Origin: Deltaproteobacteria bacterium
Lineage (GTDB): Bacteria > Myxococcota_A > Bradymonadia > REDH01
Assembly: GCA_007693585.1 (NCBI GenBank)
Contig: REDH01000067.1
Location: 1-64,000 of the forward strand
Length of the DNA stretch: 64,000 nt
Reading direction: 5' to 3'
Part shown: in pieces, positions 50,945 to 57,472 of the stretch
Layout: the number at the start of each line of letters is the position of its first letter
Numbering within the stretch: position 1 is the first letter of the stretch
The notes under the pieces: model-generated
What the model was told of the DNA's origin: nothing
What the model saw: only the letters and a program-made list of their open reading frames with translations
The model's database searches: none
Position numbers and translations under genes: made by a program

Positions 50945-51760
50945 ATGAATCGCCTCGATTGCGAGACCGTGCGGGAGAGCGTGGACCTCTATCTGGACGG
51001 CGAGCTCGACGGTGTGGGCATGGTCGAGTTCGAAGATCACCTGGGCCGCTGCGGCGCTTGCCGTGATCGACTGGAGTCGCGTCGGGAGACGAAGGAGCGT
51101 CTTCGCTCGCTGTCGGGCTCGCTGGCGGCGCCCTCGTCGCTGAAGAGCCGGCTGCGGGAGGGCGTTCGCGCTCGCGCGAGCCACGAGCGCCGTCGCGCCC
51201 GTCGGCGGCTGGTCGTCCGGGGGGCGGTGGGCGGTGGGGTGGCCCTCGGCCTGGCGCTGGGGATCCTGGTGCTGTCGGACGGTGCAGGGGAGTCGTCGGA
51301 GGAGGCCCGTGGTGAGGTGGCGGGCATGACGGCGGTGGGGTCGCCGGTCATCGCGCAGGCCGTCGCCTGGCATCGTCGCGAGATTCCGGTGGAGGTCACG
51401 GGCCCCGTGGCCGACACGGTGCGGGCCTGGTTCGACGGCAAGCTTCCCTACGAGGTGGATGTTCCGGAGATCGGGCGGGAGGGGAACCTCCTCGGGGCGC
51501 GGCTGAGCCACATCGATGCGCAGCCCTCTGCCCACATCGTGTACGAGGTCGACGGGCGAAAGCTCACCGTGATGGTCTTCGATGCGCGGGAGTTCCCCCT
51601 GCCCGGCTGGGCATCCGCGACGGACGGGCTCCTCATCGACAACTCGAGTGGCTACAACGTGGTGATGGTGCAGCGGGGTGGACTGGGGTACACCTTCACC
51701 TCGGACGTGTCGGAGGAACGCCTCCGGTCCATCGTGTACCGGGGCCTGGCCATCCGCTGA
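50945..51760 (+). CDS. Membrane anti-sigma factor with zinc-finger-like domain
   Basis: 271 residues. ATG at 50945 has GGGAGG 6 nt upstream; the ATG at 50927 overlapping the sigma stop is an alternative. N-terminal zf-HC2-type domain: CETVRESVDLYLDGELD ... FEDHLGRCGACRDRL, keeping HxxxCxxC, the zinc-binding/redox set of ZAS anti-sigma factors. One membrane helix (GAVGGGVALGLALGILVLS, about 98-116). The periplasmic part of 150 residues (VTGPVADTVRAWFDGKLPYEVDVPEI, HIVYEVDGRKLTVMVFD) resembles the sensor part of RskA/FecR-like anti-sigma proteins. It should hold the sigma factor inactive until an envelope or redox signal. Confidence 0.88.
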   Translation: MNRLDCETVRESVDLYLDGELDGVGMVEFEDHLGRCGACRDRLESRRETKERLRSLSGSLAAPSSLKSRLREGVRARASHERRRARRRLVVRGAVGGGVALGLALGILVLSDGAGESSEEARGEVAGMTAVGSPVIAQAVAWHRREIPVEVTGPVADTVRAWFDGKLPYEVDVPEIGREGNLLGARLSHIDAQPSAHIVYEVDGRKLTVMVFDAREFPLPGWASATDGLLIDNSSGYNVVMVQRGGLGYTFTSDVSEERLRSIVYRGLAIR

Positions 51761-51796
51761 TCGGGATGTTCCGATCGGCGGCCAAAATCCGCCGGG

Positions 51797-51814
51797 GCGT
51801 CACGTCGTTGTCAT
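51797..51814 (+). promoter_or_regulatory. Candidate Pho box upstream of phoB
   Basis: GCGTCAC-GTCG-TTGTCAT: two 7-bp half-sites separated by 4 bp, as in the PhoB-binding consensus CTGTCAT-N4-CTGTCAT. The second half matches 6 of 7, the first 4 of 7. It lies 72 nt before the phoB ATG. A clear -10 at the usual distance is not evident. Suggests autoregulation. Confidence 0.45.
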
Positions 51815-51886
51815 GCGTACGATTCAGTCTGCCCTGCAGGAACGGGAATGGGTTCCCGGTCCGTGGAGAGGTACCATGGAGTCGAG

Positions 51887-52597
51887 ATGACCGAGAGCGT
51901 GCTGATCGTGGATGACGAGCCGGATCTGCTCGAGATGGTCGAGTTCAATCTCGAGAAGGCCGGGTTCAGGGTGCTCACGGCTGCCAACGGGGCGGACGCG
52001 ATGGAGCTGGCGCGGGCGGAGCTGCCGAGCCTGATCCTTCTGGACCTGATGCTTCCCGATGTACAGGGGACGGAGGTGTGTCGCACGCTGAAGTCGGACG
52101 CGCGCACCCGCGACATCCCCATCATCATGGTCACGGCCCGTGGCGAGGAGATCGACCGTGTGGTCGGGTTCGAGCTGGGGGCGGAGGACTACGTGGTGAA
52201 GCCGTTCTCGCCGCGGGAGCTGGTGCTCCGGGTGAAGGCGATGCTGAAGCGGATGGCGCGTCCGTCGGTGGAGGAGCCGGCGAAGGATGCGGTGCTTCAC
52301 TTCGGCGACATCAAGGTCGATCAGGGGCGTCACCGGGTGTGGGTGGGGGAGGAGGAGGTCCAGCTCACGGCGCTGGAGTTCCGGCTGCTGAGCACGTTCA
52401 TCCGTCGACGAGGGCGGGTGCAGTCGCGGGAGCGTCTCCTCGATGACGTGTGGGGGATCGATGTGGAGGTCACGACCCGGACGGTGGATACCCACGTGAA
52501 GCGCCTGCGGGAGAAGCTGCTCGGGGCGGGCCAGTACATCGAGACCGTGCGGGGGGTCGGGTATCGCTTCAGCGAGCGCCCGGAGGACGCGGGCTGA
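51887..52597 (+). CDS. phoB: PhoB-type response regulator
   Basis: 236 residues. Receiver domain with acidic pocket VDDEPD, phospho-acceptor D53 (LLDLMLPD), T83 (VTAR) and K105 (VVKPFS). OmpR/PhoB winged helix from about 135 (LTALEFRLLSTFIRRRGRVQSRERLLDDVWG, RTVDTHVKRLREKL, VRGVGYRF). ATG at 51887 follows GGAG. With phoR and phoU downstream it forms the phosphate-starvation regulatory unit. Confidence 0.93.
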   Translation: MTESVLIVDDEPDLLEMVEFNLEKAGFRVLTAANGADAMELARAELPSLILLDLMLPDVQGTEVCRTLKSDARTRDIPIIMVTARGEEIDRVVGFELGAEDYVVKPFSPRELVLRVKAMLKRMARPSVEEPAKDAVLHFGDIKVDQGRHRVWVGEEEVQLTALEFRLLSTFIRRRGRVQSRERLLDDVWGIDVEVTTRTVDTHVKRLREKLLGAGQYIETVRGVGYRFSERPEDAG

Positions 52598-52740
52598 GGA
52601 TGGCTTGACGGGGCGGATTGTCCTGTGGTCCACGGCACCTCGGTCCGAGGTGCCGCCTGTCGACGGGCCGGGCGGTGCGCGCCGCGGTCTGGTGGCCGCG
52701 GGTCGGCTCGGGCCGGGATCGGGTCGGACGGGGAGTCAGG

Positions 52741-54582
52741 ATGGTGAAGCGATACGATCCGGCGCGCGAGCTGCCGCGGTACCAGCGGCTGCGCTGGCGT
52801 CTGTTCGCCAGCTATCTCGCGCTGATCCTGCTGACCGCCGGGCCGCCGGTGGTGACGTTTCTGCTGCTCGAGCGCACGGTGGACGAGGCCGTGCTGACGG
52901 AGCTGCGCAAGGTGGCGGATGTGGCCAGCCATGCGCTGGAGCCGCATCTCGGCGATATGGAGCGGCTGGCGCACGAGGTGCAGCGGCTCCGGGAGGAAGC
53001 GGATCTCCGGCTGACCCTCGTGACGGCGGACGGGAGGGTGCGGGTGGACTCGCACGTCGAGGGGCCGGTCGACGCGGTGGAGAACCACGGGACGCGTCCG
53101 GAGGTGATGCAGGCCATGCAGTCCGGCCGAGGGGACGCCATACGCTGGTCGGCGACGGTGCAGGAGCCCTTCGCCTACTCGGCGCGCCGGGTGGAGCTGG
53201 AGGGCGAGGAGGCGGTGCTGCGCGTGGCGCTGCCGTATGCCCGGCTGGCGTCGCGACTGGAGGGGCTGCGGGCCTCGCTCTTCGTGGCCCTCGGGCTGGC
53301 TCTGCTGCTGGGGGGGCTTCTGAGCCTGCTGCTGTCGCGGCGCCTGACGGCGCCGATCGCGGGGCTGCGTCTCGTCGCGGCGGAGCTGGCCCGCGGGAAC
53401 TACGCGGTGCAGGTCCCGGAGGTGCCGATGGGGGAGCTGCGGTCCCTGGCGGAGAGCTTCGAGGAGCTGAAGGTGCAGTTCCGGGACAAGCTTCAGCAGG
53501 TGGAAGAGGACAAGATGCTCCTCATCACCATTCTGGGCGCGATGAGCGAGGGTGTCGTGGTGGTGGACGCCGCGAGTCGCGTGCTGCTGGCCAATCCGCG
53601 GGCGCTCTCCCTGCTCGGGGTCGAGGCGGTGTGGAGCCGGGACGACGTGGAGGGACGACTGCTGCTGGAGATGACGCGCAATCCGGGGATCAACGAGCTG
53701 GTGGAGCGCACCATCCGCACGGGGGCACCCGAGCAGGCGGAGGTGAGCGTCAGCCGGGGCGTGGTGCGCCAGCTCGCAGCGTCGTGTGCACCGTTGCAGG
53801 AGCAGGGGATGAACCGGGGTGCGGTGCTGGCCCTGTATGACCTCACGCAGCTTCGTCAGCTCGAGCGGGTGCGGCAGGACTTCGTGGCGAACGTGTCGCA
53901 CGAGCTCCGCACGCCGATCGCGGCGATCAGTGGCTGGGCGGAGACGCTGACGGCGGAGGACATGGATCTGCCCCCGTTCGTGGCCCGGAACCTCGGTCGA
54001 ATCCACGCCCACGCCGGACGGCTGGCGACGCTCGTGGAGGACCTGCTGGCGCTGGCGCGGGTGGAGGCGATCGGGGTCGAGGACGTGAAGCAGGACGTGC
54101 GGCTGCGGCGGCTGGTCTCCGAGGTGCTCTCCGCGCTGCGGGAGTCGGTGGAGGAGAAGGGGCATCGGGTGACGGTCGCCGTGGAGGACTCGGCCGAGGT
54201 GATCCGCAGCGACGCGAGGGCCATCGAGTACATGGTGCGGAACCTGCTGGAGAACGCGGTCAAGTATACGCCGGCCGGGGGCCGGATCGAGGTTCGGGCG
54301 GCCCTGGAGGAGGACGGGACGTACGTGATGGAGGTGGAGGATGACGGGATGGGCATCGAGTCGCGTCATCTGCCGCGCATCTTCGAGCGCTTCTATCGCA
54401 TCGACAAGGGTCGCAGCCGGGACGTGGGCGGGACCGGGCTCGGGCTTTCGATCGTGAAGCACTATGCGACGGCCCTGGGCGGCACGGTGGAGGTGCGATC
54501 GGAGCTTGGACAGGGTTCGACGTTCACGGTACGGCTGCCGGAGTCGTCTCCGGTGCGCGGAGAGTCCGATCAACCGTCATGA
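52741..54582 (+). CDS. phoR: PhoR-type sensor histidine kinase
   Basis: 613 residues. Two membrane helices (FASYLALILLTAGPPVVTFLLL near 22-43; LFVALGLALLLGGLLSLLL near 180-198) enclose a 135-residue periplasmic sensor; then HAMP, a PAS domain (about 265-370) and HisKA with H387 in FVANVSHELRTP. The ATPase has N box ENAVKYT, DDGMGIE (G1) and GGTGLGLSIVKHY. E. coli PhoR has no large periplasmic part; this longer form is the common one in other phyla. ATG at 52741 after GGGGAG. 143 nt from phoB. Confidence 0.93.
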   Translation: MVKRYDPARELPRYQRLRWRLFASYLALILLTAGPPVVTFLLLERTVDEAVLTELRKVADVASHALEPHLGDMERLAHEVQRLREEADLRLTLVTADGRVRVDSHVEGPVDAVENHGTRPEVMQAMQSGRGDAIRWSATVQEPFAYSARRVELEGEEAVLRVALPYARLASRLEGLRASLFVALGLALLLGGLLSLLLSRRLTAPIAGLRLVAAELARGNYAVQVPEVPMGELRSLAESFEELKVQFRDKLQQVEEDKMLLITILGAMSEGVVVVDAASRVLLANPRALSLLGVEAVWSRDDVEGRLLLEMTRNPGINELVERTIRTGAPEQAEVSVSRGVVRQLAASCAPLQEQGMNRGAVLALYDLTQLRQLERVRQDFVANVSHELRTPIAAISGWAETLTAEDMDLPPFVARNLGRIHAHAGRLATLVEDLLALARVEAIGVEDVKQDVRLRRLVSEVLSALRESVEEKGHRVTVAVEDSAEVIRSDARAIEYMVRNLLENAVKYTPAGGRIEVRAALEEDGTYVMEVEDDGMGIESRHLPRIFERFYRIDKGRSRDVGGTGLGLSIVKHYATALGGTVEVRSELGQGSTFTVRLPESSPVRGESDQPS

Positions 54583-54607
54583 GGCTGTCACAGGGGGCGG
54601 CTAGACT
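54574..54607 (+). promoter_or_regulatory. Pho-box promoter for phoU
   Basis: CCGTCAT (54574-54580), 4 bp, CTGTCAC (54585-54591): 12 of 14 bases match the two 7-bp Pho-box half-sites. After 10 more bases comes TAGACT (54602-54607), a -10-like hexamer at the spacing used by PhoB-dependent promoters, in which the Pho box replaces the -35. The box overlaps the phoR stop codon; the phoU ATG is 34 nt past the -10. Confidence 0.6.
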
Positions 54608-54641
54608 GCACCGTGGTGGGGATTGTGGAGCCTGAGGTCAG

Positions 54642-55340
54642 ATGGCGATCAATGCACATACCGGGTCTCGGTACGCCGACGCGCTGCAGGACCTTCGTCA
54701 GGCGGTCCTGGAAATGGGCGGGCTGTCGGAGGAGGGGCTGGCGACGGCTCTGGAGGCCCTCCACGAGGGAGACGAGTCCCTGGCGGAGCGTTCCCGGACG
54801 ATCGACGTCGAGATCAACCGTCTCGAGCGGGAGATCGGGGAGCAGTGCATTCGGCTCCTCGCGTTGCACCAGCCTGTGGCGAGTGACCTGCGCTTCGTGA
54901 CGATGGCGATGCGCCTGGCGACGGATCTGGAGCGCGTGGGGGATCTGGCGAAGAACGTGGCGCGCCGGGCCGGCCAGCTCAGTCGTCGCGAGCACGTGGT
55001 CCCGGTGTCGACGCTGCCGGCCATGGGCCGTCGGGTGCGGCAGATGATGGCGAGCGCGCTCGACGCATTCGTGGAGCGGGACGTGGATCTGGCCTGGGAC
55101 GTCCTTCGGCGGGACGACGAGGTCGACGGGATGCACTGGGCGCTGCTGGCCGAGCTGGAGCGAGCGATGATGCAGAGCCCGGAGCTGGTGCCGGCGGCGC
55201 TTCGCCTGCTCTTCATCGTGAAGGATCTGGAGCGCGTGGCCGATCATGCCACGAACATCGCCGAGGGCGTGATCTTCCTCGTGCATGGCCGCGATGTTCG
55301 CCATCGTCGCAACGAGGGTTCGGGCCCGGGGGGGGCGTAG
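54642..55340 (+). CDS. phoU: Phosphate-signalling regulator PhoU
   Basis: 232 residues, normal length. Two three-helix-bundle repeats with the metal-binding E/DxxxD motifs (RLATDLERVGDLAKNVARR; LFIVKDLERVADHATNIAEGVIFLVHG). PhoU links the Pst transporter to PhoR and restrains the kinase when phosphate is ample. No pst genes follow here, so the transporter must be elsewhere. ATG at 54642 with GAGG upstream. Confidence 0.95.
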   Translation: MAINAHTGSRYADALQDLRQAVLEMGGLSEEGLATALEALHEGDESLAERSRTIDVEINRLEREIGEQCIRLLALHQPVASDLRFVTMAMRLATDLERVGDLAKNVARRAGQLSRREHVVPVSTLPAMGRRVRQMMASALDAFVERDVDLAWDVLRRDDEVDGMHWALLAELERAMMQSPELVPAALRLLFIVKDLERVADHATNIAEGVIFLVHGRDVRHRRNEGSGPGGA

Positions 55341-55516
55341 CGCTCGCGGGGTGGGCGACGGAAGTCGGGGGCTTGCACACCGGGGATGCAGCGGCTAGCG
55401 TCGCCGGCGCCTCGGGAATGCGGCGCGTCAACCGACGCGTTGGCCCCCACATCGCACCTGGGGTCGTGCGGGCCTGCTGCCCCACGGCCGTCCCCTGACA
55501 AGAGAGAGAGGTCAAT

Positions 55517-57472
55517 ATGCAGAGGCTATCGACAGGCGTCGCCATTCTGGCGCTTCTGGCAGCATCCGTGCTCGTGGCGGGTTGCCAGCGCGGCGAGGTT
55601 CGCGATCGGGCCGAGGCGGTCCAGCCGCAGGAGGCCGCCGCCGAGGAGCTCTTCGACGCCGATGATCGGCTCGGACTTTCGGACGCTGCGCTCAAGGGCA
55701 ACCCCAGCGCCCCGGTCACGATCGTGGAGTTCTCGTCCTACCAGTGCCCGTTCTGCGGGCGCGTCCAGCCGACGCTCAACCAGATCGCCGAGGAGTTCGG
55801 GGATGACGTCCGGTTCATCTTCCTGCACCACCCGCTGCCGAACCAGCAGCAGAGCCGGCCGGCCGCGCGGGCGGCGATCGCCGCGCAGGCCCAGGACAAG
55901 TTCTGGGAGTACAGCGAGCTCATCCTGAACAACCAGCAGTCGCTCAACGAGGCCAACTTCGTTGCCTGGGCCGAGCAGATCGGCCTCGACATGGACCGGT
56001 TCAACGAGGACCGCAACGCGGACTGGACCAACGAGCGCGTGGACGCCGACCTCGCCGTGGCCCAGCGCTTCGGCATCCGGGGGACGCCGAACTTCCTCAT
56101 CAACGGCCGCAGCGTGCGCGGTGCGCAGCCGTTCGACAACTTTGCGTCGGTGATTCGCGAGGAGGTCGAGGCCACCCGCGCCCTGATGGACGACGGCATG
56201 TCGGTCGGCGCGGCCTTCGGCGCTCGGCTGGACGAGAACCTCCGCGAGGGAGGGGCGGAGCCGGAAGCGCAGCAGCGCCCACCCCAGCCCGATCCCGCCC
56301 AGCAGCTTCAGGTGCCGATCGGCGACAGCGCCTCCAAGGGAGGGGCGAACGCCCTCGTGACGATCGTGGAGTTCTCCTCGTACCAGTGCCCGTTCTGCAA
56401 CCGGGTCCGCCCGACCCTCGACGCGCTGCAGGAGCGCTACGGCGATGATCTGCGCATCGTCTTCAAGCACCGCCCGCTCGACTTCCAGCAGCAGTCCGAG
56501 CCCGCCGCGCGCGCCGCCATCGCTGCGCAGAACCAGGGCCAGTTCTGGGAGTATCATGCGCTCCTCTTCGACAACCAGGGCCAGCTCGGCCAGGGTCAGC
56601 CCCTCTTCGAGCGGCTCGCCGAGGAACTCGGCCTCAACATGGACCAGTTCCGCACCGACATGACCTCGGACGCCACGACCGCCCGGCTGCGTGCCGACAC
56701 GCAGCTCGCCGATCGGCTCCAGGCCCGCGGCACGCCCCACTTCTTCATCAACGGCTACCGCCTCGTGGGCGCGCAGCCCGAAGAGGGTTTCCGGACCATC
56801 ATCGACCGCGAGATCGAGGTCGCGCGGGGCCTCGTGAACGAGGGAACCGCCCCCGGCGCCGTCTACGAGACGCTCATGGCCCGCGCCGACACGTCGGTGC
56901 GCATGGTGGGGGGGGACGCCCCGGCCCGGCCCGCCGAGCCCGCTCAGCCCGCGCAGCCGGTGGAGTTCAACACCGAGGGCGCGCCCGCCCGTGGCCCGGC
57001 CGACGCGGCGGTCACCGTGGTCGAGTTCTCCGACTTCAACTGCGGCTTCTGTGGACGACTCTCCACGACGCTCAACGAGGTGATGCCCGACTACGACGAC
57101 CGGGTCCGGTTCGTGTCCATGCAGTTCCCGCTCGGCCGGTGGCCGATCTCGCAGACCGCCGCCGAGGCCGCCCTCGCCGCCAACGCCCAGGGCCAGTTCT
57201 GGGAGTTCAAGAACCTCATCTACGAGAACCAGCGCTCCCTCAACGAGGGCTCCTTCGAGCAGTTCGCCGAGCAACTCGGCCTCAACATGGACCAGTTCCG
57301 CCGGGACATGGAGTCCAACGCCCACGCGAACACGATCACCGCCCACCGTGCCCAGGGACAGCGCGCGGGCGTGCGGGGCACCCCGGCCCTCTTCCTGAAC
57401 GGACGTCAGATCGGGGGCGCCATCCCCGCCGACCAGCTTCGCAGCGCGCTCGACGAGGCGCTGGCGAACTGA
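55517..57472 (+). CDS. Lipoprotein with three tandem DsbA/thioredoxin domains
   Basis: 651 residues. Signal peptide ending LVAGC, lipidated Cys about 23, then a 40-residue linker. Three DsbA-like thioredoxin domains of about 180-200 residues: active sites CPFC (77/80), CPFC (about 291/294) and CGFC (about 509/512), each with a cis-Pro loop (GTPNF, GTPHF, GTPAL) and a FWEY/FWEF helix start. Pro/Ala/Gln linkers join them. Domains 1 and 2 share VTIVEFSSYQCPFC and are the closest pair. Disulfide oxidation or isomerisation in the periplasm is expected; the window encodes many Cys-rich exported proteins that would be clients. GAGAGAGG precedes the ATG. Confidence 0.9.
   Translation: MQRLSTGVAILALLAASVLVAGCQRGEVRDRAEAVQPQEAAAEELFDADDRLGLSDAALKGNPSAPVTIVEFSSYQCPFCGRVQPTLNQIAEEFGDDVRFIFLHHPLPNQQQSRPAARAAIAAQAQDKFWEYSELILNNQQSLNEANFVAWAEQIGLDMDRFNEDRNADWTNERVDADLAVAQRFGIRGTPNFLINGRSVRGAQPFDNFASVIREEVEATRALMDDGMSVGAAFGARLDENLREGGAEPEAQQRPPQPDPAQQLQVPIGDSASKGGANALVTIVEFSSYQCPFCNRVRPTLDALQERYGDDLRIVFKHRPLDFQQQSEPAARAAIAAQNQGQFWEYHALLFDNQGQLGQGQPLFERLAEELGLNMDQFRTDMTSDATTARLRADTQLADRLQARGTPHFFINGYRLVGAQPEEGFRTIIDREIEVARGLVNEGTAPGAVYETLMARADTSVRMVGGDAPARPAEPAQPAQPVEFNTEGAPARGPADAAVTVVEFSDFNCGFCGRLSTTLNEVMPDYDDRVRFVSMQFPLGRWPISQTAAEAALAANAQGQFWEFKNLIYENQRSLNEGSFEQFAEQLGLNMDQFRRDMESNAHANTITAHRAQGQRAGVRGTPALFLNGRQIGGAIPADQLRSALDEALAN

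Follow-up and report, generated by a model that had tools for sequence, protein, structure and literature searches.

The phoU gene of the putative phoB–phoR–phoU cluster described here very probably has a PhoB-activated promoter of its own, in which, judging from the letters, the −35 element is replaced by a Pho box. Two CTGTCAT-like half-sites lie in 11-bp register, separated by the four bases GAGG, and a 10-bp spacer (agggggcggc) leads from the box to a −10-like hexamer (Table 1). The site is real and lies well beyond chance, and a hexamer follows at the same 10-bp distance at sites before phoB and before a Na/Pi symporter gene. The promoter is of an ordinary kind; the wiring of the circuit to which it belongs is mildly unusual. 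The window, that is, the whole stretch of DNA that was analysed (64,000 nucleotides, with a G+C content of 70.5%), is part of contig C48 in a source genome of 4.97 Mb that is assembled in 223 contigs and is 97.7% complete.

Table 1. Coordinates of the genes and promoter elements; positions refer to the window unless a contig is named.
Feature	Position	Strand	Remarks
Pho box GCGTCAC-GTCG-TTGTCAT	51797–51814	+	before phoB
−10-like hexamer CAGTCT	51825–51830	+	10 bp past the phoB box
phoB	51887–52597	+	likely start M14 of a 249-aa ORF beginning at 51848; Response_reg and Trans_reg_C domains
phoR-type histidine kinase	52741–54582	+	HAMP and PAS domains
Pho box half-site 1, CCGTCAT	54574–54580	+	overlaps the 3' end of phoR
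Pho box half-site 2, CTGTCAC	54585–54591	+	
−10-like hexamer TAGACT	54602–54607	+	10 bp past the box
phoU	54642–55340	+	232 aa; PF01895, 162.5 bits
Third core match, ending CAGACT	C148:38633–38655 (locus L251)		44 nt upstream of the symporter ATG

The Pho-Box Site before phoU

Pho-box promoters are textbook elements, and those of E. coli keep a spacing of 10 bp between box and −10. The sequence-only reading had described two half-sites with a 4-bp gap, 12 of 14 matches to the enterobacterial consensus, and a −10-like hexamer 10 bp further on, and each of these elements was recovered at its place. The score against the two-half-site consensus is 12/14 when counted strictly and rises to 13/14 if C or T is accepted at the last base. 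Half-site 1 covers the last two codons of phoR and the T of its TGA stop codon (54580–54582), and the box is therefore not purely intergenic. No sigma-70 −35/−10 pair was detected at 51600–55600, and the box would take the place of a consensus −35 element. An A/T-rich 4-bp gap between half-sites is typical of E. coli Pho boxes without defining them; the gap at the phoU site is GC-rich, unlike that of E. coli, and relatives too have GC-rich gaps in the boxes that precede pstS and phoB.

With the window modelled as a first-order Markov chain, box matches of at least 13/14 are expected 0.020 times in the 64-kb window on both strands, and 9e-6 times in the phoR–phoU spacer (59–60 bp) on one strand. 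Genome-wide pattern searches returned the phoU box as the best match, and as the only one with at most one mismatch, to the CTGTCATN4CTGTCAY-type box in the 4.97-Mb genome. Four two-mismatch matches were found genome-wide, which is not above control; the phoU site thus stands out of the background, while the box alone defines no regulon. When the box was relaxed to give 28 matches in the genome, YAGWCT at N10 accompanied two, namely the phoB and phoU sites; no −10 is found at N10 of the others, which lie mostly inside open reading frames.

The phoBRU Genes and a Probable Second Promoter before phoB

phoB, phoR, and phoU are consecutive on the forward strand. The best family for PhoB is TIGR02154, yet the score stays under the equivalog cut-off (266.9 vs 296.2). 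The nearest PDB match of its DNA-binding domain is E. coli PhoB (1gxp/3t72), with a recognition helix that reads RTVDtHvkRLR against RTVDvHirRLR in E. coli and an identical wing (TVRG), so that the genome, by alignment, encodes a PhoB with matching DNA-recognition residues. PnpS and PhoR models are among the best for the kinase and score highly, both under cut-off, and the names PhoB and PhoR are probable assignments that draw on best family, gene order, and adjacency to PhoU. PhoU itself is a full-length, two-domain protein that passes TIGR02135 (209 bits vs a cut-off of 130.25). The region 3' of phoU encodes a 651-aa protein (55517–57472) with three tandem DsbA/Thioredoxin_4-type domains.

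The sequence-only reading had missed the Pho box before phoB, where the promoter has the same layout as that of phoU, a box followed by N10 and the hexamer; the arrangement implies that phoBR may be autoactivated from this promoter.

A Third Copy at a Na/Pi Symporter

A core pattern, YTGTCAY-N10-YAGWCT, was derived by combining the phoB and phoU sites only. It has exactly three perfect matches in the 4.97 Mb, where 0.53 are expected, and all three precede phosphate genes: phoB, phoU, and a Na/Pi symporter (392 aa; NF037997, 95.8 bits vs a cut-off of 50), whose site had been noticed by eye before the core-pattern search was run. The symporter site is the weakest of the three, because its upstream half-site matches at only 3/7 positions. 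Of the 14 genomic matches to the core pattern with one mismatch, none could be recognised as lying at a phosphate gene. Two contigs of the source genome carry Na/Pi-type genes; the second gene (contig C67) has a far-upstream TTGTCAC with no good −10, in a setting that looks origin-like by eye, and was not counted.

These counts bear on the reading of the phoU box as a chance resemblance, written in part by the coding sequence of phoR. The position of half-site 1 within the last phoR codons would suit such an origin, as would two-mismatch boxes that are no commoner than in the control, but the expectation for the spacer is minute and the exact core pattern occurs three times, always at phosphate genes, which makes coincidence very improbable. 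A PhoB-activated promoter remains the preferred reading of the site.

Relatives

The comparison genomes belong to the same class, five of them to the same order. A box with N10 and YA precedes pstS in three class genomes (G042, G044, and G019) and phoB in three (G044, G041, and G048), and is also found before a phoU paralogue (G042) and an OprP-like porin (G005; the porin named by eye). Boxes without a good −10 at N10 precede pstS in G023 and phoB in G024, and an exact Pho box, likewise without a good −10 at N10, stands before the orthologous Na/Pi symporter (57% identity) of G025 (L202). Among 14 class sites beside Pho-type genes, picked regardless of −10, nine have A as the second base of the hexamer (p about 8e-4) and eight have a hexamer that starts with YA (p about 3e-5), both with an assumed background A of 0.22. 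Joint box/−10 scores are mostly 16–18.5 in box-bearing Pho clusters, against 13.5–15 in reversed-sequence controls. The promoter geometry proposed for phoU is thus backed by the uniqueness of its box in the genome, by the copies at phoB and the symporter, and by the N10 boxes of relatives.

The 69 exact box matches across the class showed no overall enrichment of a −10, and they were dropped as a regulon; most lone box matches are accordingly noise and unusable as evidence. An excess of boxes over the reversed pattern across the class is an unfair comparison, since reversal alters word composition.

The nearest PhoU relatives (49–50%; G027, G028, and G030) lie in phoB–phoR–phoU clusters in which phoR and phoU abut with no spacer, no box was seen, and no pst gene was recognised beside phoBRU. 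In the five other genomes of the order, phoU, where found, follows pstB, and the same holds in family relatives. A large same-strand ORF with an apparent PHP/CehA-like domain, recognised by eye, precedes phoBRU in G030 (L127), and the upstream ORF of G027 (L128), and probably that of G028 (L129), has a similar C-terminus. Second, more divergent phoU copies occur in G042 and G041 (L133 and L134); at one of these two loci a CTGTCATCGGTCTGTYGC box precedes phoU, and at the other the same box precedes a PhoB-like gene.

Probable Expression of phoU from Two Promoters

When phosphate is limiting, PhoB would be phosphorylated by PhoR; a dimer of PhoB~P would then occupy the two 11-bp repeats and bring RNA polymerase to TAGACT. 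Transcription is predicted to start at about 54613–54615, and a start near 54613 would give phoU a leader of about 29 nt. phoU would then be made in two ways, by read-through from the phoB promoter and from its own internal promoter, and the latter would raise PhoU relative to PhoB and PhoR. Transcription from the internal promoter most likely comes on top of read-through, because phoBR has a box of its own and no terminator was detected at 51600–55600, the phoR–phoU junction included. The sequence-only reading had gone further and suggested that phoU could be induced on its own. The part of this claim that concerns a separate promoter is supported, but phoBR too has a Pho-box promoter and, with no terminator detected between phoR and phoU, the gene is probably not induced alone; rather, its expression could be boosted over that of phoBR.

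Read-through might also be the only source of phoU transcripts, with PhoB binding at the site without useful transcription. The two genes are on the same strand, 59–60 bp apart with no detected terminator, the phoB promoter carries its own box, and many, indeed most, of the PhoB sites that E. coli has outside promoters are without effect on transcription (PMC10294691). This alternative is nevertheless unlikely, as the phoU site has a −10 at the 10-bp spacing that is also seen at phoB and the symporter, and functional PhoB promoters need strict box-to-promoter spacing, according to structural models cited in the same study (PMC10294691). It is more improbable still, to the point of being hardly credible, that PhoB acts at the phoR–phoU junction as a roadblock that represses or modulates read-through from phoR instead of activating phoU; PhoB is capable of dual regulation (PMC10294691) and the box is located inside an operon, but its geometry relative to the hexamer is of the activation type and identical to that of the phoB promoter.

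If the phoU site is a PhoB-activated promoter, extra PhoU would probably bring negative feedback or a readiness for shut-off. The normal role of PhoU is to hold back PhoR/PhoB as well as the uptake of phosphate, and an extra, PhoB-driven dose of it would therefore feed back negatively. In E. coli, PhoU is required for the dephosphorylation of PhoB when Pi is plentiful (PMC4415409).

Comparison with Known Systems and a Possible Pst-Free Regulon

The phoU site resembles the E. coli PhoB promoters of pstS, phoA, and phoBR in its two 7-bp half-sites of the CTGTCAT type, set in 11-bp register (consensus, PMC4415409), and in having a −10 without a −35, and autoactivation of phoBR is likewise part of the E. 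coli regulon (PMC10294691). In contrast, phoU of E. coli closes the pstSCAB-phoU operon and is listed in the regulon only through it (PMC10294691). Streptomyces phoU, like the present gene, lies beside sensor and regulator genes, outside the pst operon and next to regulator-bound PHO boxes, but there phoU and phoRP diverge and the boxes follow a GTTCACC motif (PMC6283541), whereas here phoU is downstream of phoBR on the same strand and the motif is CTGTCAT-type. In a Zoogloeaceae locus (L114) and an Azospirillum locus (L116), a stand-alone phoU is also outside a pst operon and preceded by a Pho-box-like element, N10, and TAGTCT or TAATAT; the comparison is one of sequence, and these loci differ in that phoR is not directly upstream and the boxes are weaker (11–12/14). 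A Pho box at a phoR–phoU junction, with phoU downstream of phoBR, was not found in the literature searched, nor among 80 relatives, in 43 of which the gene upstream was recognised and was always pstB.

PstS (PF12849) and PiT (PF01384) were not found in the source genome, and PstB had no match over cut-off there (best, 152 vs 343 bits). Since none of the three was found, the partner of PhoU may be the symporter and not Pst. A minimal Pst-free Pho regulon is a tentative proposal, somewhat short of an even prospect, in which the targets of PhoB would be limited to phoBR, phoU, and the Na/Pi symporter. PhoU, raised in level by a PhoB-driven promoter of its own, would then sense or restrain the symporter instead of PstSCAB; pst genes could be hidden in assembly gaps.

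Phosphate signalling from PhoU to PhoR is usually studied within the PstSCAB complex. With PhoB, PhoR, and PhoU encoded, no Pst or PiT detected, and one promoter signature shared by phoBR, phoU, and a Na/Pi symporter, the genome described here is a natural setting in which to ask if PhoU can signal without Pst and what extra, PhoB-driven PhoU does to the response. More broadly, the site indicates that a CTGTCAT-type Pho box apparently works in a GC-rich lineage far from the enterobacteria.
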